DNA of 64,000 nt from Methanobrevibacter sp. V74 (GTDB lineage: Archaea > Methanobacteriota > Methanobacteria > Methanobacteriales > Methanobacteriaceae), in contig NZ_CAUJAN010000003.1 in NCBI RefSeq assembly GCF_963082495.1, forward strand, positions 336,055 through 400,054, in the 5' to 3' direction. The position numbers were made by a program, and so were the translations under genes. Shown here piece after piece: positions 1 through 59,139 of the stretch; position 1 is the stretch's first letter, and each line of letters starts with the position of its first letter. Below the pieces are notes generated by a model, which ran no database searches, had not been told where the DNA came from, and saw only the letters and a list, made by a program, of their open reading frames with translations.

Positions 1-2
1 TA

Positions 3-3623: not shown

Positions 3624-3665
3624 TGTTTATTAAATAATATATTGAAAAAAAATAAGGTGATAATT

Positions 3666-5540: not shown

Positions 5541-5676
5541 AATAAATAATACGGTTTTATTGAGATTGTTAGGTTATAAACAAAATCAGAATCAATCAGT
5601 AATAAACTAACATTTAGATAAAACTATTATTTCTTCTAACTTATTATTTTTTATAATTATTTTTTAAGGTGAATAA

Positions 5677-6819: not shown

Positions 6820-7124
6820 GTTAGTTTTTACTAATTTACTCCACCTATTTTTATTGAAACTATAGTTAATTAAACTATACCTAACTTATTTTTACATTGA
6901 AATTATTTATTGATAATTTAATAATTTGATAGGATGCTTTTTAAAATATGCATTGCATTTCCTGTGATATACATAACCTAATTAATTTTAGAGGATGTGT
7001 AGAATTAAGGAGTTTTTAGACAATGTTAGTCTTAAAATAATCAAGAAAACGACTGGTTAAATCAATACAACCAATGAAAAGAAATATGATTTCTTAATGA
7101 ACCTTGACAACAATGAATCAAGTG
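6820..7124. other. Intergenic region with possible coding relic
   Basis: No intact gene is seen. Around 6990-7130 the plus strand reads as short broken peptides (RIKEFLDNVSLKIIKKTTG, a stop, then NEKKYDFLMNLDNN). This looks like the remains of a gene that I cannot identify. The rest is A/T-rich spacer between convergent dnaJ and the adhesin-like gene. Confidence 0.3.
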
Positions 7125-7127
7125 ATA

Positions 7128-7170
7128 CTTGAAAAAATAAAAAAAACAATAGAGATTGAAAAATCTCTAT
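7128..7170 (-). terminator. Terminator of adhesin-like gene 1
   Basis: A 9-bp stem ATAGAGATT / AATCTCTAT with a GAAA loop spans the stop codon. On the minus strand it is followed by an eight-T run and further T-rich sequence. This is a clear hairpin-plus-T signal. Confidence 0.7.
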
Positions 7171-10100: not shown

Positions 10101-10565
10101 AACTAAATACATATTACTATTCATATTCAAATTAAAGCCATCAATTACAACATTGTTTTCTTTAATGATGAATGCTATGTTATTAAATGTGGCATTACGT
10201 CCAGTGAAGGTAACAGATTTTGCAATAGTGATGCAATATACACCAATATTACTAAAATCACCTTCAAAAATTAATTCAGTAGCATTAGAAGTTAATACCC
10301 CATCTTCATCAAAGTAATTATAAAATGTATCATTAGTTACCACATTACTATCAGAGATACTACCATTATCTTGAAGAATGCCACCATTATCACTTTCAAG
10401 TTCACAACTACCTTCATCAATAGTTAGAACTTCATTATCTGTAGATATTTCATCATTTACTTGGCTAGCAGTAATATTCCCATCATCGGCAGCAAAAGCC
10501 ACACTAGCAGAGAATAATACGATAGAAAGCAAAATTAATGAAATAAATATGTTTTTTCCTTTAAT
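7167..10565 (-). CDS. Adhesin-like surface protein 1 (beta-helix plus Ig-like repeats)
   Basis: About 1,132 aa, exported. The likely start is an ATT codon at 10565, 5 nt behind GAGGTG on the minus strand. It gives a normal signal peptide (MKGKNIFISLILLSIVLFSA, cleavage near AFA/AD). The first in-frame canonical codon, TTG at 10532, lies inside the hydrophobic core and would remove the positive n-region. Residues ~80-880 are Asn/Ile/Val-rich parallel beta-helix repeats (ISNNxI, GNxI patterns). The last ~250 residues hold three Ig-like domains (DENGDPIKNATVF, DDMGNPLANKEVT, DSKKKGINKVKVT), the last very Lys-rich, which may bind the pseudomurein wall. Such proteins are typical of host-associated Methanobrevibacter; the ligand is unknown. 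Confidence 0.85.
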   Translation of the reverse strand: MKGKNIFISLILLSIVLFSASVAFAADDGNITASQVNDEISTDNEVLTIDEGSCELESDNGGILQDNGSISDSNVVTNDTFYNYFDEDGVLTSNATELIFEGDFSNIGVYCITIAKSVTFTGRNATFNNIAFIIKENNVVIDGFNLNMNSNMYLVNVKNVDDVTISNNVINFLSLKSMDSFAILAKNITTLNLLKNTITYVGTTEGANINNAVRVEGGRNVTMSDNVYNIIMPSVDVKYDLNYNLEAFSEGIVFLTCENVTLTRNNIKLNYSGISGSSDTIYVVTIGNANMNYTDFTFPNVCKNVVVSDNNITANGHGYIYSMSIVADEFELTNNNFDITAEANYANAIAVGGPSSNGKVSGNVIEITAPNVVYGIYAYQLMGPIENVTYSDNIITGNAYAACGFEIVMKNPVISDNKITLNGNHTVAIVANSLDEGTISGNQINSLGSNIGNQSTGDSMIHMESAGISVKGDWDISDNSINSTSIGVNLILGGDIDLEDNVINVIAKGETDNYAVYAKGMDELTMSGNIVNFVGNVNENITSNGIYVFSSNGVHIFDNELNLNLVSAFVPWIEEPPGSWNYVRHAKSSGIVVVNSEDVIFASNNVTTTFVDVVGNSDTIYVLDFTDTGNAIIKNNNINSLGNTYIYGIIIEADNFTISFNNITSSANYYADGIDIEGGYGNVESNVITVNANNSTYGIYSGMSGKSVSVNITHNKIHGNAYYVVGIEVGGDEALIDNNIIYVTGNHTIGIGSKVDKINITNNNITSEASNEGNLSIWDSMGTDTVGVKIAAGNATIANNTIQTSGDYAVNLNGNNATISNNYLTGKKGVGSNSVANAGPSTVITDSSPKYKVIISVMDYNTVYNSGLIYYAILSDENGDPIKNATVFLSAGLNKINTTTDNSGVAAFEVSAWDVGKYNVYVTYFGNETYGPKSVKGHINIEKRLSEIAGVSSKTVLLTAIKSGSYYDITLKDDMGNPLANKEVTITFNGKTQTGITNSAGVVKFRLAATKTGTQKLVVKFNSDSNYVASTLTATVKITKEATKLTANKKAFKAKKTKKYNIVLKDSKKKGINKVKVTLKIKDKIYNAKTNSKGNAVFKIKLTKKGTYTAKVKFAGNSYYKAASKKVKITIK

Positions 10566-10716
10566 AATTACACCTCTTATAAATTAATTAATTCAAATGT
10601 TCAATAGTCAACTAAATTTAATAAATTAACGACTACACTTAAGATTAAGTTTAATAACATATTTAAATTTTATTAAATAAAAATTGAAAAAAAAGTAAAA
10701 TAAATGTTAAATACCT

Positions 10717-13700
10717 TTATCTTTTAATAGTAATCGTATTAGATATTTTACATTTACCATATTTTGAAATAATTTTATATTTACCCACTTTTAATTTTTT
10801 AAGGGACAACATAACAATACCCTTTTTATTGGTTTTCACTTTGTATGTTTTTCCTTTAAATTTGATGGTGATTTTTTTATTTTTTAATGCCTTGCCATTC
10901 TTATTGACCAATTTAACTGAAAATTTAATTTTTTTAGCTTTTTTCGTAACTATGTTTTTAGTGATTAATGTTGGTTTGATTTTTAATTCATTGGAAACTT
11001 TATCACCATGATACTCGGCAGTTATTTTATAAGATCCTGCGTTCAGTTTTAAAGATTTGGAAACATATCCCCTTTTATCAGTTTTAAGATTGTATGTTAT
11101 ACCATTAACTTTAACTTTTACAATATGACCTGCTCCAACATATTTGCCTTTAGAATCCATAATGCGAAGCTTATAAGTAATAGTATTGCCATAGTAAACA
11201 GCATAATTTTTATTTCCAGTAATTGCAGGCATTACAGTAACATCTGCTGTGCTTTTAGATCCATAATAAGCATCATCCCCAGCATAAGACACGTGAACTC
11301 TATAATTTCCTCTTGAAATTGGAGGTAAACTAATTTGACCGGCAGAATTAGTAGTTAAAGGGTAAGTAGTACCAGCCACCATGACAATGACTTTTTTATT
11401 AGACATGACACTACCGTTTTGATCTTTTAATGTGGCTAAAATACCCCCCGGATAAACTTTTGAATTAATTGTAATGCTTGTTGAAATAAGCCTATATGCA
11501 GTTAAATTAGCATTAGCAGTAACTGTTTCAAAATAATCGGGATTTTTAATTTCTACAAGTATTTTAGGATTATCACTGTAAATTTGAGGAATTTCAGCAG
11601 TTAAAATAGCTTTACCGTTAACATCACTAACAACTTTTCCTAAATAACTATAAAACCCATCATCCACAACATTAAATTCAACTGTTATTCCGCTAACAGG
11701 ATTTCCCAAAATATCTACAAGAGTTGCTACAAATATTGCATTTCTTGCAATAGCTCCGGTAACATTATCAACATGTACAGTTAAATCACCTTTTCTTATT
11801 TCTAAGGTTGATTCGAATTCAGTGTATTTATAATTTTCTTTAAATACGTTAGCATGAATCAAATATGTAGCCGGAGTATAATCGATGAAGGTATAATTAA
11901 GTGTTGCAGTGCCATTTTTGATTACAACTTGTTGAATTTCACCATTCATAGAACTAAATGTAACATTAGCTCCCTCTAAACCAACATCAGTAGTTGTAAA
12001 TACAAATGTTCCCTTCTCCAAATATTTTATAACTATATCCGAGAGGGTTCCAGTTACTAAATACTTATAATTTTTATCAACAGTATTATTAACTGTAGTA
12101 TTTACTGCATAATTTCCAATACCATTTTCACTGTCAAGATAATTAGAATAAATTACATTATCAATGGCAATATCATCAATAATAACTGCATAACCAAATT
12201 TGGAAGTGATATTATTTTCAGAAATATTATTATAAGATGAATTTAATTTAAGATAGACTCCTGCAGTTCCAGTCCCTGTTGGATCAAAGTTTATAAAATT
12301 GATTTCATCACCAGTTGCATTAACAAAAATAATATTTGAGGTTAATTTATTATTTTGTGCTTTAACAATTCTTGAACCATATGATTGTTTGGCGTTAATT
12401 TCAAAGGTATTATTATTAATTATGTTATAATTAGAAGAATAAACATCTATCCCATAAACCATTTGTGAATTTAATGTTAAAATGTTTTTTTTGATAGTGG
12501 ATCCTTGAGACATTTCTAAATTAATACCATATATAACACAATCTGCTCGGGCATTTACAATATTGCCTATTATAGTAGTGTTTTTAGATTTATCACCAAT
12601 TATTATTCCTTCAACACAATAAGTACCATTTAAACGAATATTGTTATTAATGAATTGGTTATTTGATGCATCTTGGCCAATTGGAGCCTCAGCTCCAGTT
12701 TGAGAACCTAAAACCCCAACACCATAAATGTAATTATCATATCCATAGATATAGATATTATTATTTGAAACAGTATTATTGTGGGTGTTGTAATATAAAT
12801 CAATACCTACAAGTGAATTTGTAGAATTAGTTTTGTTATATGTTTGGTTTAATTTTGAAGTAACAGTTACATTATTTCCAGAAATGATATTATTTGATGA
12901 AAAAGCCGTTAAGATACCATAAGTCCTGTAAACTTCAGCTAAAACATAAGTTCCATTTAAAGTGTTTCCACTGGTGCAGACTTCATTACCAGAAGTACAA
13001 GAACTATTACCAGAACCTGGAATCTCACCACCAGAAGTGCAGGTTTCATTTCCGGAAGTACATACTCCCCCACCACTAATGTAGACTTCGGAAGTTCCAT
13101 TGGTAAAGATAGTATTATTTATAAATCTACAATCTTCCGCAGTATAAGCAAGTAGAGTATAAGTTAAATAATTACCTGAAGATGAAAGTTTATTTCCAAT
13201 TATATCAACATAAATAGATTCAATTACATAAATAGCATAAGCTGCATTTTTATCATAAACATCAATGCTACAGTTAGTGATTGTAGCACCAACGGCCCGG
13301 TAAACTAAAACTCCCCAACCATTTGAAACTTTATCGTTTCGGATAGTTAAATTTTCCATCCAAACACCATTCGAGTAAATTTTAAATTTGACATTGTGAA
13401 AAATTGGGTTTTTACCGGTTATTTTAACTGCGGAATTAATGAAAATAGTTTTATTTGAAAAAGTACCCTCAAAGTGTAAAGTATCCCCATCTTTAATAGT
13501 AGCAGACAAATAACCATTAGCACTAATGTATTCATCATAATTAGAATTATTAATTATATAGTGAGTCCCATTAAATTTGTATTGGGGTTTTGATGGATCA
13601 TATGATCCTTCTGGTGTTGCAACAATACCTGTGCCTTTAGGACCGCTATTATCTTCAATCCTATAATATTCAGATGCATCTGCATCTCTTGCATCAATTG

Positions 13701-15015
13701 AATAAGTATTATTAGTTGAAACATAATTATTTATAATTGTAATATTTCCAGGCATTTTATGAACACTCATTTTTTGAATTAAAACACATACACCATAGTG
13801 ACTATATATAGTATTATTATCTACTGTTAAATTAAAAGAATGAGTATTGAATAATACTCCTGCACCAGAAATAGTTGAAATGAAATTATCTTCAATGTTA
13901 ATATAAGATCCGCAAGGATAAATACCAGTTCCTTGAAATATTACCTCCACGGTATTATTTTTAATAATAGAATAATCTAAAGCTGAAATACCTGAACCTG
14001 TTGGGATGATCTTTGCATTTTTAATTGTATTGTTAATAACAGTGGAATAAAGAGCAGCTACAATACCATATTCTCCCCCAATTTCAACTGAAGGATTATT
14101 GAAATCAGCCCCTGTGAGGTTAATAATTTTATTATTTATAATTATATTTCCAGTTCCTGAAGTTGAAATTCCCCTATATGCTCCAATAACCCTATTAGAG
14201 TTTATTGTATTATTAGAACCCATAATTTGAATACCGTAACTCCAAGAAGTAGGCAATACGTTGTATTTTATAGAATTATTATAAATTATATTAAAATTAG
14301 AATGACCTCCATTAAAATATCCTCCAGGATAACTAGATAGATAAATTCCATTTGCATCATCACAAATTATCTTATTATTTGCTATATAATTATAATGAGA
14401 TCCACTTATGACCAGTGGAGGTGCAGACCTTGTTCCATGACCATAAGTAATTCCGAAGGTTGTTAATTTATTATCCGTAACATTATTATGATTTGCATTA
14501 TTTCCAATACCAATAGCATAAGAAGACATACCATTATTTTTAATTGTACATCCACTTATAACACAATTACTTGCACCATTTAAAAACACACCACACTTGT
14601 AATCCTCAGAATTATTAATATTTAAATTAGAAATTGTACTTCCAGATGCTCCGTTATAGAACATGAAAATACAATTTTTAAGAACATTTGTGCTTGATCC
14701 TACAACATTTACTTGTTTTTTAAAGGAAAATGTCTTATTTGAAAAAACACCGTCAATATTGAGAGTATCACCTTCATTAACAGAAGTTGAAATTAATACC
14801 CCATTCTCAAAATAATTCTTATACGTAGTAGGAGTAACCGTGTGAGAATTTGAAGTTAAAACTTCTTCACTAACTACATCACTATTATCTGATGTAGACA
14901 ATTCAATAGATTCATCACTACTTACAGTATCATTTAAATCATCGCTAGCACTAACAGCAGTGATAGATACCAATAATAGTAATAAAATCAATATCATATT
15001 AATTTTTTTAAACAT
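10717..15015 (-). CDS. Adhesin-like surface protein 2 (double beta-helix plus Ig-like repeats)
   Basis: A 1,432-aa exported protein. The signal peptide is clear (MFKKINMILILLLLLVSI, cleavage near VSA/SD), with GAGGCA before the ATG. Two beta-helix blocks are each introduced by a similar unit (NYFENGVLISTSVNEGDTL; later NGYLSATIKDGDTLHF), which suggests internal duplication. Four Ig-like domains follow (ILGNPVSGITVEF, DQNGSVMSNKKV, DSKGKYVGAG, NKNGKALKNKKITIKFKG), ending in a Lys-rich stretch. A Cys-containing 7-residue repeat interrupts the second helix. It lies in the same orientation between adhesin 1 and the CobN-like protein; each gene is separated by more than 100 bp and probably has its own promoter. 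Confidence 0.87.
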   Translation of the reverse strand: MFKKINMILILLLLLVSITAVSASDDLNDTVSSDESIELSTSDNSDVVSEEVLTSNSHTVTPTTYKNYFENGVLISTSVNEGDTLNIDGVFSNKTFSFKKQVNVVGSSTNVLKNCIFMFYNGASGSTISNLNINNSEDYKCGVFLNGASNCVISGCTIKNNGMSSYAIGIGNNANHNNVTDNKLTTFGITYGHGTRSAPPLVISGSHYNYIANNKIICDDANGIYLSSYPGGYFNGGHSNFNIIYNNSIKYNVLPTSWSYGIQIMGSNNTINSNRVIGAYRGISTSGTGNIIINNKIINLTGADFNNPSVEIGGEYGIVAALYSTVINNTIKNAKIIPTGSGISALDYSIIKNNTVEVIFQGTGIYPCGSYINIEDNFISTISGAGVLFNTHSFNLTVDNNTIYSHYGVCVLIQKMSVHKMPGNITIINNYVSTNNTYSIDARDADASEYYRIEDNSGPKGTGIVATPEGSYDPSKPQYKFNGTHYIINNSNYDEYISANGYLSATIKDGDTLHFEGTFSNKTIFINSAVKITGKNPIFHNVKFKIYSNGVWMENLTIRNDKVSNGWGVLVYRAVGATITNCSIDVYDKNAAYAIYVIESIYVDIIGNKLSSSGNYLTYTLLAYTAEDCRFINNTIFTNGTSEVYISGGGVCTSGNETCTSGGEIPGSGNSSCTSGNEVCTSGNTLNGTYVLAEVYRTYGILTAFSSNNIISGNNVTVTSKLNQTYNKTNSTNSLVGIDLYYNTHNNTVSNNNIYIYGYDNYIYGVGVLGSQTGAEAPIGQDASNNQFINNNIRLNGTYCVEGIIIGDKSKNTTIIGNIVNARADCVIYGINLEMSQGSTIKKNILTLNSQMVYGIDVYSSNYNIINNNTFEINAKQSYGSRIVKAQNNKLTSNIIFVNATGDEINFINFDPTGTGTAGVYLKLNSSYNNISENNITSKFGYAVIIDDIAIDNVIYSNYLDSENGIGNYAVNTTVNNTVDKNYKYLVTGTLSDIVIKYLEKGTFVFTTTDVGLEGANVTFSSMNGEIQQVVIKNGTATLNYTFIDYTPATYLIHANVFKENYKYTEFESTLEIRKGDLTVHVDNVTGAIARNAIFVATLVDILGNPVSGITVEFNVVDDGFYSYLGKVVSDVNGKAILTAEIPQIYSDNPKILVEIKNPDYFETVTANANLTAYRLISTSITINSKVYPGGILATLKDQNGSVMSNKKVIVMVAGTTYPLTTNSAGQISLPPISRGNYRVHVSYAGDDAYYGSKSTADVTVMPAITGNKNYAVYYGNTITYKLRIMDSKGKYVGAGHIVKVKVNGITYNLKTDKRGYVSKSLKLNAGSYKITAEYHGDKVSNELKIKPTLITKNIVTKKAKKIKFSVKLVNKNGKALKNKKITIKFKGKTYKVKTNKKGIVMLSLKKLKVGKYKIISKYGKCKISNTITIKR
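12968..13093. repeat. 21-bp tandem repeat inside adhesin-like gene 2
   Basis: Six consecutive 21-bp units begin CCACTGG, CCAGAAG, CCAGAAC, CCAGAAG, CCGGAAG and CCACTAA. On the coding strand they give a 7-residue period (CTSGNET, CTSGNEV and similar). The number of units could change by strand slippage without a frame change. Confidence 0.8.
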
Positions 15016-15112
15016 ATTCTGCCTCGCTACATTGAATTCAAGATTATTTTAAAAATAATCTAGCATATTATTATGTTTGGAAATAAAATATATTTAAAAA
15101 TTTCTAAAATTT

Positions 15113-15149
15113 AAAAAAATAAAAAAAAGTTGATGATTAGTAATCATCA
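15113..15149 (-). terminator. Terminator of the CobN-like gene
   Basis: The palindrome GATGATTA-G-TAATCATC overlaps the stop codon. On the minus strand it is followed by AAC and a run of T residues. It forms a compact hairpin with a U tail. Confidence 0.6.
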
Positions 15150-18100
15150 TCTTCATCTTCATCATTTCTCCAATATCCAACTAAGAATATTGCAATTAAA
15201 ATGATTACAGCAACAATGACAAATATTGGCATACTAGATTCAACTGCACTAGCTGATTTAGCTGCAGATTTTTCAGATACCTCATATGCATTAGCACCAG
15301 AGTCTCCAGAACTAGCATCAGAGGAGGAAGACTGTGAACTTTGAGATTCGGCAGTGGTTTTTGCATCACCAGATTGTGAAGCATCTATACCAAAAGCGGT
15401 CTTTCCACCATTCCTGTTACTTGATGCATCATCAGAAGTTTTGTTAACTAATTTTTTTGCATTAGAATCATCTTTACCAGTTTTACCATTATTTGAACCT
15501 TTATGATCTGAATTTGCACCATTGCTCTTTTCATCAACCATTTGATATAATGGATCAGTATTTGTTGCATGAGCCAATATTTCTGCAAATTTTTGTTTTT
15601 GAGCTGAAGTTAATGAACTTTGTTGAATAATCTTAGAATTAAATGCAAGGTTTTTACATGTGTGGTGACAACATGCTACACCATACTTGATTACTTGTCG
15701 CATATATTCATCAGCTAATTTTTGAACAGTGCTTTTGTCAGCAGCCCAAGTTCCTTGATTTGCAAGATAAACCATCCATGCAAGAGAAGTTTGATAACCT
15801 GCAGAAGTTGTTGCTCCATTAATACTTCCCTTCATACCTAACAAAGTGCCGGCTAATTGATTACCCAATTCTTTTTCAAGTTTACCATTGCTTATTGTTA
15901 AACCTCCAAACATATTCTGGATTCTTGATGCATAAGAGTTCATTCCAGTACCCCCACCATTAATAAGAGGGGCGTAATATTTAGGGTTTAAAAGCATTGA
16001 TCGAATTTCGAACTCAACTTCATCTTCATAGGTTCTTGCAACATACTTATTTTTATTTCTTATATCGACAAATGCAGTATCCGGTCTTGACTGACCTGAT
16101 TGTAGTCTCAATATAGTAGCTGCATTGTATAATCCTCCAAACCAATCATAGTAATCATCTGAATCTAATAATCTCCAAGTACTGTCAAAATTCTGTGTAA
16201 TTAACTCAGTCTTATTAAGCAAATAAATGAAGTTTGCTTTTTGATTGGTAATTACAATATTACCCTTTTCATCAAGAGTCCATGAATAAGAAACTCTTGA
16301 AAGATAAACATCCATTGCAAATTGATTAAGAGTACTTTTATTCCAGTCAGCAGTGTTTGGAATAAGAGTAGACATACCAGTTCCTTCCAATACATTACCC
16401 GGAAGACCAAATAATCTATCAAGTGAAGGATTTTCTGCATAGTGTTTTTTAACAAAATTGTTTGCTTCGTTTTCACCTTCTGCAAAAGCAGCGAGTTTTA
16501 CCGCTTGTAACATCCATGAAAGCCAATCTTTATTGCTTGTAACTATACTTGCAAATACGTCAATTCTAGGTCTGTTTACAACTGTCCCATTAGATAATTT
16601 AACAGTAAGTGAACTTAACGGAAGTTTTTCAACACCTGTAACTTTACCATTACTTTCCCATACTGGTTTACAACCAAGGAAATATAAGAATTCCGCAATT
16701 CCAATACCTTCTGTTCTTGAAATTTCTGTACCCCATAAGATTAATGAAGTTAATTCCGGCCAGCGGCCATGTTTTTCATAGTATTGGGAAAGTAACAAAT
16801 CAACGATTTTGACAGCTGATTGATATGCTGACTCTGAAGGCATTCTTGTTGGATCAGATGCATATCCATCATGACCTGTTGGAATTGAATCACCATAAGA
16901 TGGGTCTGCAAATAACCCTGATGAAACATATCCTCCTCGAAGAGCGGTTAAAATAGCGTTCCATTCATTGTTGTTTTGGATTTTAATAATAACTTGCTCA
17001 GCATATAATGTTGAGTTGTATAATGCAGAATTTTTTACAATATTATATTTAACAGTTAAATCCTCAATTGAAGAACCGTTAACTAAATCGGTTATGAAAT
17101 TTCTCAAGAATTGTTTTATCACATTAGCTTGAACTAAATAATTTAAACTACCTGAAATGTCCTCATTGAAATTCAATCCTTTAAATTCAGGATATAGGAA
17201 TTCCATGATTTGATTATAAATCTTAGTTTGAGAAGTTGTAATTGTAATAACCTCTTCAATGAGTTCATTGCCGGTTAATATTTTACCTAAAGAATGTAAA
17301 CCGTAAGTGATGAAATCATCTTCCATATCTTCAAGATATAAATGCAAATCATCCATCCATTTTTGGAATGTTTCATTAGACTCTATAAATTTTCTAAAAC
17401 CTAGAGAAGGAGCCAGTTTAATGATTTTTTGTTTATACTCTTCTGCATTAGAACTTACATTAAGATTTACTTGATCTTTATAGTATGTAATATAATTATT
17501 TAATACTGTATAATTGCCATATAAACCTGATGAAACCATAGCAGGAGTCATGTGAGTAATCAACAATGCTGCAATCCTATCACGTGCAACCATAGCTTCT
17601 CCAGGGTTAGATACAATATAAGGATACAATGTAGGGTTTAAAGTTAACTCAAAAGTCCAATCCCCTGCAACAGCACCTAAATTAGTACCCGGCAACCATT
17701 CCAGAGTTCCATGAGTCCCCATATTGACAATTGCATTTACTTTAGCTATCTTATCTAACCATTTATAGAAAGATACATAGTATTGTGTTGGTGGCAAAGT
17801 TAAATCATGGTAATTCTCTATTGTTTTCAATTCTTCCCAGCCTCTACTTGGTTGGAATGTGATAAATACCTTACCGAACCATATTCCTGGAACAACCATA
17901 TATTGTTCATTAGCACCATTATAAACCATTGACGGACCTAAACCTGAACCCCAGTAGTCTGTCATGTTTTTAATTAAGTTAGTTGGAATATCTTTAATCA
18001 AATTACGGAAAACTTTTGTTGAAATTAACTGATTATGTTCAACTAGTGACCCATAATTGTTTTCAACATAATCTTTAAGAAGACCGTATGCCCATGAACC

Positions 18101-19993
18101 TTTATTACCCATTGAAAAGATAATTTCTTCAAGTTGACTGGCATTTAGTTTTTTCCTAATGTCCCCTCCAGTATCATAGCCTGCCTCATATAATTTGACA
18201 ATTAAATCATATGTGGACTGAGTTACATTCAAGTAGGATGCACCAATTTCTGCTTTACCAGGAGGATAATTATACAATACAATAGCTATAGTTTTATCAG
18301 AGTTATTTAAATCTTTTAAATCCGCCCAACCACAGCTTAATTTTACCATTTTATCTACACCGGATTGAATAACATGAGTTTTTCCGGCGCCATCTACATA
18401 TGATAAGATTACAGGACCAAAAACCCCTTCAAAACTTGGATAGGTAACGGCATAAGTCCATTCAACTTGAGGACCCAATTCAGAGTTATAACTGTATTCA
18501 GATATTTCATTAACACCTTTTAAAACTGATAAATCGATTTCGGATAAATCTGATTCCGCTGAACCATTTGCATAACTTAAAGACCAACTATATAATGAAG
18601 TTACTGATGAGATGCCAATTTTAGAACACTTTACAATTCTATTTAGAATTGAAGAAGCAGAAGGATTTGTACTTGTTTTAAATAAATTAAAAGCAGGCCT
18701 ACCGCTTTCCTGATAACCTCTAATTAGAGCATCAACAACATCTCCACCACAATAGTAAGTGACAATAGCTATAAATTTTTGATTATAAGATATATTATTC
18801 TTAAAATCTTTTTCGAATTTACTGAATAACTCTTTTGGATCCAAAGTAGTTTCAACCCAGTTTTCATAGTTTTCTTTCATCCAATTCAAACTACCATCTG
18901 AAGTTTTAGTATAACCAGGATTTGTTGTAATCCACTTATTAATTAAGCTTGGTTCCGGTACAAGTGTATACCTTCCTAAATCAGGATGATAAAAACCGCA
19001 TTCCGGACTCATTAAAGGAAGTCCATTATCATTTAAAGTAGGATTAGAATATTTTGATGGTTCGATTAAATGACGAACATACTTGAAATAATTATCCATA
19101 TTACTTATTAAAACTTCAGAATCCTTTATATCCTCTGATTGGAAATATGACCCAATATATGTATTTTCAATAGTATCATAAGTATTATTAGATTCACTTG
19201 CTCCAATTATATGCAAACCAGTTGCATTTAGGATTTCTTGTGAATAAACACCAAATGTATAAGCAACCCTATAATTTTTATTCGCAGGAGAATTAGCTAA
19301 TAACTGTTTAAGATAGGATGCTGTAAATTTATTATATGCGGAATTTTCAGCAAACATATCAATATGAATATAATTAGCATATCCAGCTAACCATGCCCTT
19401 GATTCATCAAAATTAGTAGTACTAATATATGCAATACGCCTGGACATATTCATCAACAGGTCCACTTTCTCATTATGAGAGGAATAATCTACCAATAACA
19501 ATATGTCGGGAACAAACATTACATCATCCATATCAAGAGTTCCACTATACTTAGTAAAATCAACATTAAATATCTTAAAAGATTTATAAGTTGAATAAGA
19601 AAATTCTAAATTATACTTTAATGAACCTAATCCAGTAAATGATACAATACCATCTTTATTTGTAGTTTTAGTAGAAATCAAGTTATTTGAAGAATCAAAT
19701 AATTTAACCGTTGCTCCACCTAACTTAATACCATCCTCCGTCCATGTTTTGCCAGTTTCATTATAAGAATCATAAACGTGAACATTAATTGTATTACTTG
19801 CCCCCAATATTTCCGCACCTGATTGAGAAGCCTGGACATCGCCAACATTCGAATACAATGTTGTTTCTTCTAACTCACATGGAGTACTCACCACATCAGA
19901 TATTGTTTCATTATCTCCTGCAAAAACACTGCCTACAGAAAATACAAGCAATATTGAAATAATTAATGCGAATAACAATCTATTATCTATAAT
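15137..19993 (-). CDS. Exported, membrane-anchored CobN-like (cobaltochelatase large-subunit family) protein
   Basis: About 1,618 aa. The preferred start is ATT at 19993, 5-6 nt behind GGGGGTGA on the minus strand. GTG 20002 and TTG 20017 are also in frame but overlap or precede that site. A signal peptide follows (NRLLFALIISILLVFSVGSVFA/GD), then a CNA-B-like beta domain (residues ~60-130). The remaining ~1,300 residues are CobN/BchH/ChlH-like, with HGTLEWLPG near residue 762, RPRIDVFAS, and a Cys/His cluster CCHHTC near 1443. A Ser/Asp-rich stalk, YEVSEKS, one membrane helix (FVIVAVIILIAIFLVGYW) and an acidic tail end it. Cytoplasmic CobN inserts cobalt into a corrin ring using ATP-driven partners, none of which is in the window. 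Here the core would face outside, where ATP is absent, so binding or transfer of a tetrapyrrole or metal is more likely than classical chelation. Confidence 0.85.
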   Translation of the reverse strand: MIDNRLLFALIISILLVFSVGSVFAGDNETISDVVSTPCELEETTLYSNVGDVQASQSGAEILGASNTINVHVYDSYNETGKTWTEDGIKLGGATVKLFDSSNNLISTKTTNKDGIVSFTGLGSLKYNLEFSYSTYKSFKIFNVDFTKYSGTLDMDDVMFVPDILLLVDYSSHNEKVDLLMNMSRRIAYISTTNFDESRAWLAGYANYIHIDMFAENSAYNKFTASYLKQLLANSPANKNYRVAYTFGVYSQEILNATGLHIIGASESNNTYDTIENTYIGSYFQSEDIKDSEVLISNMDNYFKYVRHLIEPSKYSNPTLNDNGLPLMSPECGFYHPDLGRYTLVPEPSLINKWITTNPGYTKTSDGSLNWMKENYENWVETTLDPKELFSKFEKDFKNNISYNQKFIAIVTYYCGGDVVDALIRGYQESGRPAFNLFKTSTNPSASSILNRIVKCSKIGISSVTSLYSWSLSYANGSAESDLSEIDLSVLKGVNEISEYSYNSELGPQVEWTYAVTYPSFEGVFGPVILSYVDGAGKTHVIQSGVDKMVKLSCGWADLKDLNNSDKTIAIVLYNYPPGKAEIGASYLNVTQSTYDLIVKLYEAGYDTGGDIRKKLNASQLEEIIFSMGNKGSWAYGLLKDYVENNYGSLVEHNQLISTKVFRNLIKDIPTNLIKNMTDYWGSGLGPSMVYNGANEQYMVVPGIWFGKVFITFQPSRGWEELKTIENYHDLTLPPTQYYVSFYKWLDKIAKVNAIVNMGTHGTLEWLPGTNLGAVAGDWTFELTLNPTLYPYIVSNPGEAMVARDRIAALLITHMTPAMVSSGLYGNYTVLNNYITYYKDQVNLNVSSNAEEYKQKIIKLAPSLGFRKFIESNETFQKWMDDLHLYLEDMEDDFITYGLHSLGKILTGNELIEEVITITTSQTKIYNQIMEFLYPEFKGLNFNEDISGSLNYLVQANVIKQFLRNFITDLVNGSSIEDLTVKYNIVKNSALYNSTLYAEQVIIKIQNNNEWNAILTALRGGYVSSGLFADPSYGDSIPTGHDGYASDPTRMPSESAYQSAVKIVDLLLSQYYEKHGRWPELTSLILWGTEISRTEGIGIAEFLYFLGCKPVWESNGKVTGVEKLPLSSLTVKLSNGTVVNRPRIDVFASIVTSNKDWLSWMLQAVKLAAFAEGENEANNFVKKHYAENPSLDRLFGLPGNVLEGTGMSTLIPNTADWNKSTLNQFAMDVYLSRVSYSWTLDEKGNIVITNQKANFIYLLNKTELITQNFDSTWRLLDSDDYYDWFGGLYNAATILRLQSGQSRPDTAFVDIRNKNKYVARTYEDEVEFEIRSMLLNPKYYAPLINGGGTGMNSYASRIQNMFGGLTISNGKLEKELGNQLAGTLLGMKGSINGATTSAGYQTSLAWMVYLANQGTWAADKSTVQKLADEYMRQVIKYGVACCHHTCKNLAFNSKIIQQSSLTSAQKQKFAEILAHATNTDPLYQMVDEKSNGANSDHKGSNNGKTGKDDSNAKKLVNKTSDDASSNRNGGKTAFGIDASQSGDAKTTAESQSSQSSSSDASSGDSGANAYEVSEKSAAKSASAVESSMPIFVIVAVIILIAIFLVGYWRNDEDEDDDY

Positions 19994-20192
19994 CGTTTTC
20001 ACCCCCTTTATGCCCAATTAGAAACATAGCAAAAAAAATTTACTATAATCTTAAGTTTAATTTGAAAATATATAAAACTAACTAAAATCAAAACAATATA
20101 TGGAAAAATAAAACGAATTGTACACAAATAAGATACATTTAAATATTACATTGACCTAATAAGAAACACTAACATTATATGAGGTGACATTA

Positions 20193-53192: not shown

Positions 53193-53280
53193 TTTCTTAT
53201 CAACTCACTATTTTCACTAAATAACTATTTAATATTCATTGTTAATATAATTTATATAATAATATGTGGGAGATTGTAGT

Positions 53281-53682
53281 ATGAAACTTGATAAAAAAAT
53301 TTTAGAAGAAAAAATTAGGGAATATAGAACATTTAAAAGCTGTTCCGAATCAACTTTAATGGGTCTTTGTGAAACTGCTGAGGCGGACATAACTCCTCAA
53401 GAAATGACAAAATTATCTTGTGGATTTGCAGGAGGAATGGGCGGAACATTTGATGAAGGAACCTGTGGCGCAGTAACTGGTGCATTAATGGCCAACGGTA
53501 TTTTAAATGAAGCTCCTCCAATCATTAAAGAAAATGCAAAAGAAATTTTTAATGCTTTTAAAGATGAATATGGCACTGTTAGATGCGATAAAATAACTAA
53601 TCATGGGAAGGATAAATCACCCTGTGTTGACTGTTGCGTATTTATTGCAAATAAAGTAGTGGATTTATTAGATAAACAATAA
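53281..53682 (+). CDS. C_GCAxxG_C_C family protein
   Basis: A 133-aa Cys-rich protein. The family motif appears around FKSCSESTLMGLCE, LSCGFAGGMGGTFDEGTCGA, and the C-terminal CVDCC. Members are thought to be redox or metal-cofactor proteins and often lie near electron-transport or transport genes; biochemistry is unknown. I start at ATG 53281 (MKLDKKILEEKIREY), behind GGGAG; a GTG just upstream overlaps that site. Divergent from cfbD. Confidence 0.85.
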   Translation: MKLDKKILEEKIREYRTFKSCSESTLMGLCETAEADITPQEMTKLSCGFAGGMGGTFDEGTCGAVTGALMANGILNEAPPIIKENAKEIFNAFKDEYGTVRCDKITNHGKDKSPCVDCCVFIANKVVDLLDKQ

Positions 53683-53775: not shown

Positions 53776-54114
53776 TTAACCTTCAACCATGATCAATTTG
53801 CCCGTTTCAGAATCTTTATAAACTTTACCCATTTCAGTATAACCACTACCTGATGATTTACTTAAATCAGGAGTGTCTTCTAATTCTTCACCCTGATCTA
53901 CTTGTGAAACTTCGTTTATAGCATCTTTAACTTTTTGTCTTTGTTGTTCATCCATATTTTCATTAAAGACAATATTTTGCATATTCCATGAAATTACTAA
54001 AAATATTAACAACCCTACAGCAATTACTAACATTGCATCAACAAGATTAGTTGTCCCTGCCATTGGATCTTCTTCACCATGGCTTAGAAATTTTCCTTTT
54101 CTTCTACGAATCAT
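53776..54114 (-). CDS. DUF2149 protein, ExbD-like partner
   Basis: A 112-aa protein with a basic N-terminus (MIRRRKGKFLSHGEEDPMAG), one membrane helix (LVDAMLVIAVGLLIFLVISW) and a soluble, acidic outside domain (EELEDTPDLSKSSGSGYTEM; GKVYKDSETGKLIMVEG). An NLVDAMLV-type helix carrying an Asp, placed directly after an ExbB-like gene, is the layout of ExbD/TolR, where that Asp conducts protons. DUF2149 is the family I recognise. Last of the four-gene run and 8 bp after the ExbB-like gene. Confidence 0.8.
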   Translation of the reverse strand: MIRRRKGKFLSHGEEDPMAGTTNLVDAMLVIAVGLLIFLVISWNMQNIVFNENMDEQQRQKVKDAINEVSQVDQGEELEDTPDLSKSSGSGYTEMGKVYKDSETGKLIMVEG

Positions 54115-54122
54115 GAAATCAT

Positions 54123-54764
54123 CTAATCCTTTAAATTTTCTAAAACCGCATTGACAAATAGTTGCAAATTAGAAGAATATTCTTCATACCATCTACGTCT
54201 AATTTTAGCAACAACATAAGCAACCGCACCAGCTCCAATACCCACAACAGTTGTATCAAATGCTACAATGATTGCATTAGCTAATGTAGATACGTCTCCA
54301 CTACCCAACGCTGCAAGACCCGGACCCATTGGTATTAAAGTTCCCATTAATCCTAAAGTCGGGCCGATACGTGTAACAATATCAAGTCTTTCAAGAGATT
54401 TTGCCATGACTACCTCTTCATCTTCAATCAAATTTAAAGCCCATGATTCTCTTGATTCAATTGAAAGAGAATGTGCATTAACTACTTTCAATAATACTTC
54501 CTTTTGATTATCATAAATTTCAGAATTGCTGACAATGCTTTTAAGTTCGTCTATAGAACTGGCATTGACCAATGAAAAAATTAATTTCTCCTTATATTCT
54601 CTATTCAATTTAATACGACAATTATAATCTGAAATTAACCCTCCAAATGCAAATATTGCAAAAACAGCAAATATTAATAAGAAAATAATTACCGGAATCT
54701 GTAAACTCTGAGATACAACATTTAATGCTGCGATTAACAATTCACTTCCTGGAATACTTACCAC
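54123..54764 (-). CDS. MotA/TolQ/ExbB-family proton channel
   Basis: A 213-aa protein with three membrane helices: one near the N-terminus (VIIFLLIFAVFAIFAFGGLI) and two in the C-terminal channel domain. The channel domain is typical: RIGPTLGLMGTLIPMGPGLA and AIIVAFDTTVVGIGAGAVAY. Such channels use the proton or sodium gradient to move a partner. I start at GTG 54764 (MVSIPGSELLIAALN), six bases behind GGTG; a GTG four codons earlier lacks a site. It follows DUF2162 and precedes DUF2149. Confidence 0.9.
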   Translation of the reverse strand: MVSIPGSELLIAALNVVSQSLQIPVIIFLLIFAVFAIFAFGGLISDYNCRIKLNREYKEKLIFSLVNASSIDELKSIVSNSEIYDNQKEVLLKVVNAHSLSIESRESWALNLIEDEEVVMAKSLERLDIVTRIGPTLGLMGTLIPMGPGLAALGSGDVSTLANAIIVAFDTTVVGIGAGAVAYVVAKIRRRWYEEYSSNLQLFVNAVLENLKD

Positions 54765-54781
54765 ATAAAACACCACATAAA

Positions 54782-55447
54782 TTATTTAAATAAAGTATTT
54801 TTTTTATTATATAATAAACCTAAACTAACCACTACAGCCAATAACACAATAGTAAGAATGATTGATTCTATAGAAACAATATTTATCGGTTTCATAGTAT
54901 TAACATCCAAAGCAACGAGGTTTGGAATGAATAAAGAAACTACCAAAAAATAAATTCCAAAAATAAAATAGAATTTACCCAAATATTCATAAGAATTACT
55001 TAAAATTTTCAATTTTTTAATAGCGAATACCGCAATTACCAATGAATTAAATAAGCATGTTGCCAATAACGTTATTTGAATATCTCCCCAACCATTTAAA
55101 ACATTTTTAGATAAAATACATGTGAATGCGATTAATACAAAGGATAAATAAGACAATGAAATAACTTTATTTACATCCTTACTTTTATTAATCAAATATC
55201 CAATGAAAATTAAAATAGATGAAATTACAAACAGCAATAAATAATTATACGAACCAATAGCCAAATTTAACTGATCATTATATAAATTCATTAAATAAAT
55301 TAATATTAACATGACCATTATTGAAACGATAGAAAATTTAACCATATATTTTTTAGAAACATTTAAACCTAAAATCAACCCAATAACAATAGAAAAAATT
55401 ATTATAGAACCTATAAAAGCTATAGACCATAATGAACTAAAAACCAT
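54782..55447 (-). CDS. DUF2162-family polytopic membrane protein
   Basis: A 221-aa protein with about seven membrane helices spread over its whole length (LWSIAFIGSIIIFSIVIGLI; YNYLLLFVISSILIFIGYLI; FIFGIYFLVVSLFIPNLVAL; SIILTIVLLAVVVSLGLLY) and few charged loops. DUF2162 proteins are predicted transporters found with ExbB-like and DUF2149 genes in methanogens. The substrate is unknown. GGAGATATT precedes the ATG; it is 13 bp after the Ser-rich gene. Confidence 0.8.
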   Translation of the reverse strand: MVFSSLWSIAFIGSIIIFSIVIGLILGLNVSKKYMVKFSIVSIMVMLILIYLMNLYNDQLNLAIGSYNYLLLFVISSILIFIGYLINKSKDVNKVISLSYLSFVLIAFTCILSKNVLNGWGDIQITLLATCLFNSLVIAVFAIKKLKILSNSYEYLGKFYFIFGIYFLVVSLFIPNLVALDVNTMKPINIVSIESIILTIVLLAVVVSLGLLYNKKNTLFK

Positions 55448-55460
55448 AATATCTCCATAA

Positions 55461-56003
55461 TTATTCCTTAGTGAAAAATTTTGACATCACAACCGCTATG
55501 AAAAATCCACACATCAATACGATTACAAATAAAATTATATTGTTTATATTGAACAAATCATTATTTTCATCATCATTATCAGAAATATTTGTATCATTGC
55601 TTGCTTTATCAGTACTGTTTTTTTCAATTGTTGAATTATCTTTCACTTCCAAAACACCAGATGAAGACTCGTCAGAACTTAATTGATTTGGATTGCTAGA
55701 AGAATAACTAGAACCACCTGAATGAGAATTTCCAGAACTGCCAGAAGATGCAGAACCTCCAGAAGAAGCAGAATTACCAGATGAGCTAGAACTTGAACTA
55801 CTTGAAGAACTATGGCCACTAGATGAGCTAGAACTAGAACTTCCAGAAGAACCAGACCCTGAATCAGAAGGATGAGAAGGAGTTTCTACAGTTACCTCCT
55901 CAGCATACTCAGAACCATGTCCTGGATGAGCACATACACTAGTTGAAACAAATGATATGATAAAAATTATTGTTATCAACAATGCCAGTCTTTTATATTT
56001 CAT
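55461..56003 (-). CDS. Exported Ser-rich stalk protein with His motif and C-terminal anchor
   Basis: A 180-aa protein. A signal peptide (RLALLITIIFIISFVSTSVCA) is followed directly by HPGHGSEYAEEV, a His motif that could bind Ni, Co or Cu. Residues ~45-115 are nearly all Ser/Gly. One C-terminal membrane helix (NIILFVIVLMCGFFIAVVM) and a short basic tail end it. The short metal-binding-like head on a flexible stalk, at the head of an ExbB/DUF2149/DUF2162 run, suggests a coupling or metal-capture part. GGTGAT precedes the ATG. It is the first gene after the FmdE-protein terminator. Confidence 0.75.
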   Translation of the reverse strand: MKYKRLALLITIIFIISFVSTSVCAHPGHGSEYAEEVTVETPSHPSDSGSGSSGSSSSSSSSGHSSSSSSSSSSSGNSASSGGSASSGSSGNSHSGGSSYSSSNPNQLSSDESSSGVLEVKDNSTIEKNSTDKASNDTNISDNDDENNDLFNINNIILFVIVLMCGFFIAVVMSKFFTKE

Positions 56004-56136: not shown

Positions 56137-59100
56137 TTATTTACGTCTCATGTAACCTAAACCTAATACAATTCCAATTGCTAAAATACCTATTAAAGCA
56201 TATAAAAGATTATTGGAATCTGCAGATTGTGTTTCAATAGATTTTGAAACTTCATAAGATTTTGACTTACTGTCTGAACTTTGATCAGCTTCAGAATCTT
56301 CTAAAGGTTGTGAACTGTCTCCAACATTTACAGGTTCTTTACTTGTAGCTGCATTTGCATGACCATAATATCTACTTTGAGATGGATTAGATGACCTAGC
56401 ATCAGTGGACTTAGAATGACCATTTGAATTAGATCTGGAGCCATCAGATTTTGCATTAGATGTAGTGTTAGATTTTTTAGTATTGTCTTTGGTATTGTTT
56501 TTTGTCTTATCTTTATTATTATCTGCAATAGACTTTAATAAATCTTCTTTAGTAACATTGTTAAGACCTTTAACATATCTAATAACGGAATCATCAGCAC
56601 CTTGCTTTAATTTATTAAATTGTTCTTCATTAATCCATTTCTCACAGTCTGTAGAAACAATAGGGCGTGATTTAATATTTGGATTATTTACCCCATTATA
56701 CAAATCAATGTAAGCCTCGATTTGAGCAGCACGTTTAGCTTCAGAGGTACTGTACATACTTGTATCAATGTCACCCCATTTGAAACTTAAAATAGAAACC
56801 TTACCAACTTTAAGATTATTATCCCATACCACAAGAACACCCTGGTAAGTTCCGCCAGCAATATATTCAGATACAGTTTCATTATTAGGTAATTTTTTAA
56901 CTAAAAAAGTACCCATACCTGGAGAAATACCTAATAAATAAGTCATACTGTCATCCTTACAGAAAGTAGTTGAAGCAATGTAAGTATATGATTCATTTTC
57001 ACCTAAAGGATATTTCTTTTGAATGTGGTCAGTTATAAAGAATCCCGGTTGTACACCCGGACATACATGATTGTGGTATAAGAAAGACAATATTTGATCA
57101 AATGCTGGGTGAGATCTCCATGCATTTGCAATAGTCTGAATACTGAACCAATTTCCATCTGGCATGAAAGATTTTGGAATAGCTTTTACTTTTGCAGAGT
57201 TATTTAAAGTATCAATGCCTATGTTTATTACTTTATCACCATCAAGTTCCCCTACAAAGAATGATCCATTAACATTGTATCTAAGATATGCTGCATGAAT
57301 TTCTTTTGTGTCCGGATGACGTAAGATAAATGCAAACCATAATGGCTTCCAAAGTGCTTGGTGGTATTGTAACATGTTTTTACTGTATAAACTAGTGCCT
57401 AATACTTCATGAAGACCATCACGAACTAAAACTGTTTCTTGACCTTTCAAGTAAACATAACCTGCTGAAGTAAATACTGCAAAGTCAACATTATCTCTGT
57501 CAATATCAATACCTAATTCATTTTTGAATAACTCTTTTCCTTTTTTAGCTGCATCAATACCAATTTGTTTCATTTGAGCATCAGTTAATGTGCCTTTAAT
57601 AGTATCAGCATTTGTTCTTGTTGCTTTTGGTAAATTTAAAGATAAAATATATTTCATATCTAAACCATGAGCATCAATAGCTTGAATAGCATGACCATCT
57701 GCACTAACATCGGCATTTGTACCCATTAAATAATAATACTGTTCTGCAGTTAAATTAGTAAATTCATATAAAAAGTCAACTAAACATCCAGGATTTGTAT
57801 TAATTTTTTTAATCCACCATGAACAGTATTTTAATTCTTCCAAACTTCCGGAATCTGGATTAATACCAGTTTCTTTTATGAAAGTATTTTTAACATTAGT
57901 GGAATTTAATGACATGATGATTAAATCACCAGTATTGGAACTAGCATACCATCTGATAAAGCCAATCATATTCTCAGTTGCACCAGTTGCTGTGGTATCA
58001 ACACCTACATAACCAGTTTTACCAATAGTTGCATCTAAGAAAAACATTGCTGCATCATCATCAGATCCCCCTGGAACACCAAGAATCTTGTATGAAGTTA
58101 TATCGCCTGGAGAACCTGCACCTTCAGATTGGGTTTCTTTTACAGGAGGGTAATATTTTAATAAAGCTTGCACAATACTAAATCCGCCTAATGTTCCTTC
58201 ACAAATATGTCCATGGAATGCACCTTCCTGAAGCACTTCTCTTGAAACACCTGCAACCCAACCATTTGCTAAACTTGCAAATGCCCATGCGTTCTTACCT
58301 TTAATAGACTTAAAGTAAGTATTCCATTGCTTTTTGGTCATGTTTTCAGAAATAGTACCCAAGTAAGAGTGTTTTGTTGACCCGTTCTCAAATATTGCTG
58401 CTTTTAATTGATTTCCTTTTTTAGTTATAAAAGCAAAGTCAATCGGATCTACAGCAGATTGGCGTAGCATTAAAACATCGGTATAAGCTATATGGTTACC
58501 ATAATTTATAATACCCTCTATTGCCTCTTCACTGCATTTGCCATATAATTTAGCTACACCAGCTGAAGTGACAATAAGAATATCATCGGCATTTTTGAAA
58601 TCTAATAATTTATCTGCTGATTCAGTAACTGTTTTTCCTAATTCATAAGCTTTTGTAGCTTTTAAATCAAAGGAAACAAGGTTAGTTAAATCTGCACCAC
58701 TAATTATTTTAGATTGACTAACATATCCAGATGTCATTGCAGTAATATTATAACTGCCTGCCAAAGCATCTTTAATATTTAGAACATAATTTTTATCATT
58801 CACATTATAATTTTTTGTAAAATTAAGGTATTTTCCATTAGAAACTACATAAAAATCAGGAACTAATTTATTTGCATCATCAGAATATTGATAATTAACT
58901 TTTACCTCAACAGAAGTAGTATTGCCGGATCCAGAATCTTTCAAAATATTTGAAGATTGAGAATCAGAAACTTGTTCGTTAATATCATCATTAGAACTTG
59001 ATATTGCATCCGAATAAGATGCTGAATCAATACCTAAAGCGGCATTATCAAATGCATCTGCATCACCTGCACAAACTGCACCTGTTACAAACATTAAGAA

Positions 59101-59139
59101 TGTAATAAGAGTAATGAATAAAAGTAGTTGTTTTCTAAT
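56137..59139 (-). CDS. Giant exported double FmdE-domain protein, membrane-anchored
   Basis: About 1,000 aa. The likely start is ATT 59139, six bases behind GGAGGT. It gives a normal signal peptide (RKQLLLFITLITFLMFVTGA, cleavage near VCA/GD). The first canonical codon, ATG 59094, lies inside the hydrophobic core. An N-terminal beta domain (~residues 75-150) precedes two related modules, each with a VTSAGxxxLxG-type strand and an FmdE signature: FHGHICEG near 310 and YHNHVCPG near 690, plus FCKDDSM. FmdE is a metal-associated domain first named from a formylmethanofuran dehydrogenase operon. A Ser/Asn-rich stalk, SYEVSKS, a membrane helix (LLYALIGILAIGIVLGLGY) and MRRK end it. The architecture copies the CobN-like protein at 15137-19993. 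Confidence 0.85.
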   Translation of the reverse strand: MRKQLLLFITLITFLMFVTGAVCAGDADAFDNAALGIDSASYSDAISSSNDDINEQVSDSQSSNILKDSGSGNTTSVEVKVNYQYSDDANKLVPDFYVVSNGKYLNFTKNYNVNDKNYVLNIKDALAGSYNITAMTSGYVSQSKIISGADLTNLVSFDLKATKAYELGKTVTESADKLLDFKNADDILIVTSAGVAKLYGKCSEEAIEGIINYGNHIAYTDVLMLRQSAVDPIDFAFITKKGNQLKAAIFENGSTKHSYLGTISENMTKKQWNTYFKSIKGKNAWAFASLANGWVAGVSREVLQEGAFHGHICEGTLGGFSIVQALLKYYPPVKETQSEGAGSPGDITSYKILGVPGGSDDDAAMFFLDATIGKTGYVGVDTTATGATENMIGFIRWYASSNTGDLIIMSLNSTNVKNTFIKETGINPDSGSLEELKYCSWWIKKINTNPGCLVDFLYEFTNLTAEQYYYLMGTNADVSADGHAIQAIDAHGLDMKYILSLNLPKATRTNADTIKGTLTDAQMKQIGIDAAKKGKELFKNELGIDIDRDNVDFAVFTSAGYVYLKGQETVLVRDGLHEVLGTSLYSKNMLQYHQALWKPLWFAFILRHPDTKEIHAAYLRYNVNGSFFVGELDGDKVINIGIDTLNNSAKVKAIPKSFMPDGNWFSIQTIANAWRSHPAFDQILSFLYHNHVCPGVQPGFFITDHIQKKYPLGENESYTYIASTTFCKDDSMTYLLGISPGMGTFLVKKLPNNETVSEYIAGGTYQGVLVVWDNNLKVGKVSILSFKWGDIDTSMYSTSEAKRAAQIEAYIDLYNGVNNPNIKSRPIVSTDCEKWINEEQFNKLKQGADDSVIRYVKGLNNVTKEDLLKSIADNNKDKTKNNTKDNTKKSNTTSNAKSDGSRSNSNGHSKSTDARSSNPSQSRYYGHANAATSKEPVNVGDSSQPLEDSEADQSSDSKSKSYEVSKSIETQSADSNNLLYALIGILAIGIVLGLGYMRRK

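Follow-up and report, generated by a model that had tools for sequence, protein, structure and literature searches.

What does an ExbB-type motor pull on in a cell that should lack an outer membrane? The question is raised by a 64,000-nucleotide stretch of Methanobrevibacter sp. V74 (NCBI RefSeq assembly GCF_963082495.1, contig NZ_CAUJAN010000003.1, positions 336,055 to 400,054 of the forward strand), hereafter called the window. In it, genes for an ExbB/TolQ/MotA-type channel, a one-helix DUF2149 protein and the membrane protein DUF2162 lie beside the gene for a large exported FmdE-domain protein. The archaeal hosts of this motor should have no outer membrane, and the gene content of the window fits Methanobacteriales. 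We consider it probable that the motor needs neither TonB nor an outer membrane and works directly on client proteins that are exported and anchored in the membrane. The genomic linkage of motor and clients, a C-terminal box common to the clients, the dependence of that box on the motor over genomes and conserved metal-ligand residues in the clients form the evidence.

The motor operon of the window

The preliminary description had reported a tight run of a Ser-rich exported protein, DUF2162, an ExbB-type channel and DUF2149 next to the FmdE-domain protein, and positions, strand and Pfam matches bear this out. On the minus strand, the exported FmdE-domain protein comes first, followed by the Ser-rich one, DUF2162, the ExbB-like channel and DUF2149, with 133, 13, 5 and 8 bases between successive genes. 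The single helix with an aspartate described for DUF2149 is also present, D26 being invariant in an alignment of 30 sequences. The exported CobN-like protein is real as well, but is located 35 kb away from the motor operon.

53776..54114, minus strand: DUF2149 (HmuV-type), 112 aa, one membrane helix (Pfam PF09919, 1.1e-21)
54037-54039, minus strand: Asp26 (D26) of DUF2149, within the membrane helix
54123..54776, minus strand: ExbB/TolQ/MotA-type channel (HmuU-type), 217 aa (MotA_ExbB PF01618, 7.2e-11)
54782..55447, minus strand: DUF2162, 221 aa, at the position of HmuT, with about seven membrane helices (PF09930, 1.2e-14)
55461..56003, minus strand: Ser-rich exported protein, 180 aa, AHPGHG after the signal, C-terminal membrane helix
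56137..59094, minus strand: exported FmdE-domain client, 985 aa from ATG, C-terminal helix (FmdE PF02663, 4.8e-18, two stretches)
15137..20017, minus strand: exported CobN-type chelatase client, 1626 aa, C-terminal helix (PF02514, 8.4e-173)

The channel belongs to the ExbB/TolQ/MotA family (PF01618 at 42.4 bits against a cut-off of 22.9), and a profile of its relatives matches the solved ExbB 5sv0 with an E-value of 5e-5. DUF2149 is proposed to be its ExbD-like partner. DUF2162 of the window has lost the PCPVC motif of the CobN-linked copies and has FTCILS in its place, and the Ser-rich protein matches no Pfam family above cut-off. The frame of the FmdE signal peptide extends upstream to an ATT at 59139 just after GGAGGT (59092-59139, minus strand); the gene may start there instead of at the ATG at 59094, with a slightly longer protein as the product.

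Linkage of motor and clients across the phylum

A profile search of 151 genomes of the phylum detected DUF2149 in 135, CobN in 118 and MotA_ExbB in 145. Both DUF2149 and CobN are present in 114 of the 151 genomes, DUF2149 only in 21, CobN only in 4 and neither in 12, as counted from rows with 13 unlisted CobN-free genomes assigned by elimination and without correction for kinship. The co-occurrence over genomes on which the preliminary description had staked its idea thus holds for DUF2149 and CobN. The neighbourhoods of 101 DUF2149 genes, from 99 fetched stretches and the window, were then compared; these stretches, together with one more around a canonical ExbB, were chosen by hand and are not a random sample. 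On the same strand, 28 of the genes have CobN as a neighbour, 9 have FmdE and 1 has both, placing CobN or FmdE near 38 of the 101 motors; another exported protein with a C-terminal helix is found near a further 19. Frequent companions in FmdE loci are the Ser-rich protein, a Ni/Co transporter subunit of the CbiM type and a small exported protein with AHG after the signal. A chance run of genes was rejected as an explanation: a DUF2162 match is found near 84 of the 101 DUF2149 genes (17 are without one), and ExbB adjoins DUF2149 in nearly every row.

DUF2149 occurs four times in the window's genome. Three of the corresponding triads have no adjoining CobN, and the remaining one, on contig C2 (L036), is joined to a CobN of 1658 aa in the order CobN-DUF2162-ExbB-DUF2149.

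A C-terminal box common to the clients

In Methanobacteria-like genomes, many of the exported neighbours of the motor, including CobN, FmdE and other surface proteins, end in a common arrangement of K[AS]YE[VIL], the final membrane helix and GYxR. We found no description of this box in the literature searched, which consisted of open-licence papers. In the two clients of the window it is placed as follows.

56242..56262, minus strand: box of the FmdE client, K-S-Y-E-V-S-K, residues 945-951, with the helix from about residue 963
15269..15289, minus strand: box of the CobN client, A-Y-E-V-S-E-K, residues 1577-1583

Tyr-Glu is invariant in 27 aligned client tails with differing ectodomains, the rows having been chosen for carrying the box. 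E948 is kept in all 12 exported FmdE proteins, while their linker agrees with that of the window at just 24%. In the fetched loci, a simple box pattern occurs in 50 of 231 non-motor proteins with a C-terminal helix versus 2 of 786 other proteins. Proteins with a C-terminal helix and at least 130 aa carry it in 33 of 108 cases when no more than two genes from the motor and in 17 of 115 cases beyond, and 10 of these 17 distant proteins are FmdE genes of the same cluster.

The 151 genomes were searched with a box profile of 27 rows, built from tails near or with a motor. With the cut set at E<=1e-5, a choice made once the rows had been seen, the box is found in 119 of 135 genomes with DUF2149 versus 1 of 16 without (Fisher 2e-11, uncorrected for kinship). 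Within the window's genus the figures are 63 of 63 and 0 of 4, respectively (p 1.3e-6). The exception, G009, has box-bearing FmdE and CobN and no MotA_ExbB match, and its CobN stops about 165 bases from a contig end; this looks like an assembly gap, with the triad expected past the contig end. The window's genome gives 14 matches at E<=0.05. A YE[VIL] tail is present in 10 of them, including one frame truncated at the contig start, while 2 are variants and 2 are without it; the box proteins of this genome are two CobN, three FmdE that are exported, and further surface proteins. In G146, which has a single DUF2149, the 12 boxes are located on 9 of 10 CobN frames and on 3 exported FmdE proteins, a count that leaves out a stop-containing CobN fragment of 301 aa next to a frame of 1002 aa. 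The box-free CobN of this genome (1187 aa) has neither a signal nor a C-terminal helix.

Relationship to the Hmu system and distribution beyond the phylum

By position, DUF2162, ExbB and DUF2149 correspond to HmuT, HmuU and HmuV of the heme operon of Bacteroidota. According to the Hmu papers, DUF2149 and the ExbB-like protein are HmuV and HmuU of an operon that also encodes HmuT, a membrane protein, and HmuS, which is of the CobN type. HmuS strips iron from heme; the authors of the HmuS paper let HmuV and HmuU act with the receptor HmuR, and note that archaea have numerous homologues whose use is unclear and lack a complete hmu operon. Two hmu operons fetched from Prevotella and Bacteroides plasmids contain the same ExbB and DUF2149 families. 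L036 combines HmuU and HmuV with a CobN-type HmuS, and in the window operon FmdE replaces CobN. HmuY and HmuR are both missing from the window operon, and Bacteroidota HmuT does not match the DUF2162 profile. In an alignment of 64 proteins, H769 of the window CobN falls on H538 of the B. finegoldii HmuS frame. His538 is reported as essential in HmuS (B. theta numbering), and the equivalence of the residues is assumed.

Beyond the phylum, the best 80 of at least 479 confirmed DUF2149 loci and three plasmids gave 83 loci; the set was ranked to a Trichlorobacter query and is biased to its kin, and the counts are lower bounds because several loci are short. The 51 loci from non-planctomycete bacteria have ExbB in 48, CobN in 46, a TonB-dependent receptor in 32, TonB in 7 and canonical ExbD in 4. 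In 26 archaeal loci we counted ExbB in 24, DUF2162 in 20, CobN in 12 and no receptor, and in 6 planctomycete loci ExbB in 6, CobN in 5 and, again, no receptor. TonB and receptors were undetected by profiles in the window operon and in the 26 archaeal loci, no genome-wide search having been run in the window's genome. Canonical ExbD accompanies the motor in L180, L198, L200 and L215. L180, a Trichlorobacter plasmid, has a module of TonB-dependent receptor, DUF2162, ExbB, DUF2149 and CobN, followed by genes annotated exbB, exbD and tonB. The L180 stretch (1-19144) holds a motor-CobN module near the cobamide genes cobT, bzaF and cobyric acid synthase as well as a separate TonB set.

Many CobN proteins of other phyla, bacterial ones included, also carry a related motif before the last helix, reading VEGFEMQE, IEGYEMVE, LEGYEMEE and similar, with [VIL]xG[YF]xM in many of them. 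From 15 Desulfo/Delta boxes, 9 of them distinct, a matrix was trained and then applied to 60 tails. Among helix-anchored proteins, at the threshold score of 5, it detected 21 of 40 CobN of other taxa versus 2 of 110 other proteins with a C-terminal helix and 0 of 49 motor proteins, and, by construction, 17 of 17 CobN of the training taxa. In the CobN tails whose box the matrix detects, 11-21 residues separate box and helix.

Exchange of clients

A tree of 97 ExbB proteins groups three FmdE-type motors, the one of the window among them, with eight CobN-type motors (support 100/99). The FmdE label changes five times on this tree, by gain or loss, and at least four of the changes are required by well-supported branches. 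Motors of the window's FmdE type therefore appear to descend from CobN-type motors. The CPxC motif of DUF2162 is kept in 28 of 28 CobN loci and in the locus with both CobN and FmdE, and is found in 1 of 9 FmdE loci (7 have lost it and 1 has no DUF2162), in 0 of 19 loci with other clients (14 have no DUF2162) and in 36 of 44 loci with no visible client. These counts indicate that the motor is constant and that the CPxC form of DUF2162 is tied to the chelatase; together with the repeated exchange of clients, the loss of CPxC would point to a modular machine. The predicted fold of DUF2162 is a good model (pLDDT 86), with no match in the PDB at E<=0.001.

A proposed mechanism

The ExbB-like channel and DUF2149 would form a proton motor of the ExbB/ExbD type. 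The C-terminal helix of a client would rest against the ExbB ring, as the TonB helix does, and the portion of DUF2149 outside the cell would catch the box, about 11-21 residues outside the helix, as ExbD catches the D-box. In TonB, according to the literature (PMC10907165 included), the D-box (45-51) starts 13 residues after the helix (10-32) and binds the ExbD dimer by strand addition. The gap of 11-21 residues in the clients compares with the approximately 13 of TonB. Because box and helix are similarly spaced and the box lies on the same side of the membrane, with the helix at the opposite end of the protein, we propose that the clients act as their own TonB. The preliminary description had suggested that the motor may pull on FmdE/CobN-like surface proteins. 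Linkage and the position of the box at the membrane end suggest a physical link of this kind, and from the sequences the coupling may be direct. The trio itself turned out to be known already as HmuTUV, and in the other phyla covered the motor is usually partnered by the chelatase rather than by FmdE. The main client would accordingly be an exported CobN-type, HmuS-like dechelatase, replaced by an FmdE metal binder in the derivative of the window. The client would be pulled or reshaped and a metal, most likely nickel, stripped or passed on at the cell surface. The tail of DUF2149 (53776-53830) also resembles the client box, reading G-T-A-Y-x-L in bacteria and G-K-V-Y in Methanobacteria-like genomes; it is perhaps a self-strand, as has been reported for ExbD.

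Evidence for metal in the clients comes from the two FmdE domains of the window protein, each of which has an H-x-H-x-C motif.

58201..58215, minus strand: first FmdE motif, H-x-H-x-C, residues 294-298
57061..57075, minus strand: second FmdE motif, H-x-H-x-C, residues 674-678, completed by Cys712

HxHxC is conserved in both domains in 11 of 12 proteins (H674, H676 and C678 in 11 of 12 each, C712 in 12 of 12), and the crystal structure of an FmdE-family protein has a mixture of Zn and Ni bound at FHGHxC plus Cys. The suggestion in the preliminary description that a metal is released or imported agrees with CbiM beside FmdE in several loci and with published proteomics under Ni limitation. The CbiM-type subunit was identified in L087 (PF01891, 1.9e-40) and, by likeness of sequence, in L044, L046, L051, L111, L119 and L191. 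In the window's genome, a CbiM (MHIPDG) adjoins a signal-bearing AHGAD protein far from FmdE (L275, C4:126.9 kb); it is the same pair as in the FmdE operons of relatives. The M. marburgensis study lists 'CobN1' and 'Transporter MTBMA_c10530' as raised under Ni limitation, and an earlier paper gives the CobN-like genes of this species as MTBMA_c10550-10570, two tags from c10530. Since L039 and L040 have the order CobN (three pieces in L040)-DUF2162-ExbB-DUF2149, c10530 would be expected to encode either ExbB or DUF2162 if this mapping applies.

Exact inverted repeats common to the upstream regions of eight genes of the window's genome were not found. TATTAC/GTAATA inverted repeats with a spacing of 13 or 16 bases are located upstream of CobN and FmdE genes (for example in L036, L087 and L117), and their four best arrangements occur in 18 of the 36 regions upstream of CobN/FmdE genes, in 10 of 113 for triad genes and in 25 of 533 for controls, in a post hoc test with many spacings tried and with related regions. 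The match at the window FmdE gene overlaps the coding start. NikR sites of delta-proteobacteria resemble the repeat; it is not taken as proof.

Other surroundings of the motor

On the opposite strand of the window, between DUF2149 and a nitrogenase-like gene, lies a C_GCAxxG_C_C redox-type protein (53266-53682, plus strand). The nitrogenase-like neighbour resembles cfbD of F430 biosynthesis (named by eye; Pfam Oxidored_nitro), and a functional link of cfbD to the operon was set aside, the CFBD profile matching the window alone among 101 loci. Many motors of the genus have no adjoining client but stand next to two divergent genes for proteins of about 437 and 143 aa, conserved as a pair and exemplified by L035 and its kin (C1:357-376 kb of the window's genome), and the motors of genus g12 (L063-L066, L074 and L076) adjoin very large exported proteins with no visible box or final helix. 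A canonical pair of ExbB (279 aa) and ExbD (137-138 aa) is present at L038 8406-9667 (C3:208-210 kb of the window's genome) and at L190 10567-11824, the latter among MreB/actin-like, rnhB, purO and sortase-like frames named by eye. The canonical pair is kept in G106, a genome with no DUF2149. A high-scoring ExbB, judged by the best E-value, is present in most of the 151 genomes, an exact count not having been made.

Alternative explanations

HmuU and HmuV could instead be an ExbB/ExbD pair that energizes the TonB-dependent receptor HmuR, with the archaeal copies as relics or as a modified energizer of transport. Two Hmu papers state that they energize HmuR, and 32 of the 51 loci from non-planctomycete bacteria have a TonB-dependent receptor close to the motor; none was found, however, in the archaeal (26) and planctomycete (6) loci, four loci have a canonical ExbD besides (one with exbB, exbD and tonB annotated), CobN is the commonest neighbour (46 of 51) and the box sits on the chelatase. 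We hold this explanation to be quite unlikely. About as improbable is a box and helix that serve as an anchoring or sorting signal of the archaeosortase or sortase type, with an indirect link to the motor. The succession of signal, box, helix and short charged tail does resemble a sorting tail, and an LPXTG-anchor model matches the end of the window FmdE below cut-off (E 0.069). Yet no NCBIfam sorting model scored above cut-off in nine scanned proteins, five of them box-bearing; 181 of 231 proteins with a C-terminal helix in the fetched loci have no box; bacterial CobN carry a related box; and G106, which has neither DUF2149 nor the box, has a frame that resembles, as judged by eye and without a search, the sortase-like frame of L038. 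A motor for generic adhesin turnover or wall remodelling, with CobN and FmdE as two of many clients and metal as incidental, would account for the several box proteins of the window's genome that are neither CobN nor FmdE and for the beta-helix, Ig, propeller and DUF11 clients of relatives. It would also suit M. ruminantium, in which lauric acid is reported to raise an ExbB gene and adhesin genes of neighbouring numbers together. All 12 boxes of G146 are nevertheless on CobN or FmdE, and in other phyla the neighbour is mainly CobN, leaving this explanation unlikely.

Several observations also weigh against a motor that acts directly on its clients. Forty-four of the 101 motors have no visible client. 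The box is missing at the cut from 16 of the 135 genomes with DUF2149, 7 of them in genus g12; the late choice of that cut counts here as well, and box variants in genomes with no DUF2149 could be missed because the profile was built only from motor-linked tails. At E<=0.01, the 140 matching genomes include 9 of the 16 with no DUF2149. One such genome, G126 (72% complete), has a box-like tail, KLFEINK, just above the cut (3.6e-5). The weak matches in others are a look-alike tail without Tyr-Glu in G120 (NVYSLNT; 93% complete), a helix tail without Tyr-Glu and a polytopic protein in G065, polytopic proteins in G067, G106 and G013, and frames of 71 and 52 aa in G135 and G136, respectively. The matrix cut is not reached by any of nine Bacteroidota HmuS tails; these have [MTV]V[ML][KED] in 9 of 9 (shuffle mean 0.09), a pattern defined post hoc. 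The window CobN has no match to several otherwise near-invariant residues. Homology of DUF2149 to ExbD was not supported by profile comparison: the Asp region aligns at an hhalign probability of 2% (with just 3 ExbD sequences used), no significant PDB hit was obtained and the DUF2149 model is poor (pLDDT 61). For M. marburgensis, the gene order was inferred from a relative (L040), and 'CobN1' may be another CobN.

Direct action of the motor on its clients, if correct, has wider consequences. It is conceivable, though we put it at somewhat short of an even chance, that bacteria and archaea share a TonB-free branch of ExbB-type motors whose large exported metallochelatase or metal-binder clients have a built-in TonB-like helix and a D-box-like motif, that the proton gradient thereby powers extracellular removal of metal from tetrapyrroles or other chelates, and that HmuU and HmuV of gut Bacteroidota drive HmuS, not a receptor. 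If true, this would give a function to archaeal exported CobN and to DUF2149 and DUF2162, extend force-generating ExbB motors to cells with no outer membrane and make a direct prediction on heme-iron use by gut bacteria. The box provides a simple handle, one short motif yielding a list of predicted clients for each genome.

Comparison with known systems

The proposed motor and the Ton motor have in common an ExbB-family channel, a one-helix partner with an aspartate, and a client helix with a short motif outside the membrane; in the former there is no TonB, the client itself carries a C-terminal helix and DUF2149 has no recognizable ExbD domain. The canonical archaeal pair of ExbB (about 280 aa) and ExbD is an ExbB/ExbD-like pair in the same archaea, but occupies a separate locus, has a partner that resembles ExbD and is kept in the absence of DUF2149 (L190). 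Sortase and archaeosortase signals show the same signal peptide, motif, helix and charged tail, whereas the box stays below NCBIfam cut-offs and its presence follows the motor. The Hmu system has the same ExbB and DUF2149 families, the CobN-T-U-V order (L036) and a membrane-anchored CobN-type protein; the window operon differs in having no HmuY or HmuR and an FmdE client, with nickel suspected rather than heme iron. The trio is already known as HmuTUV; the box on the clients and its dependence on the motor are new, as are the setting without TonB and the likely role in nickel.

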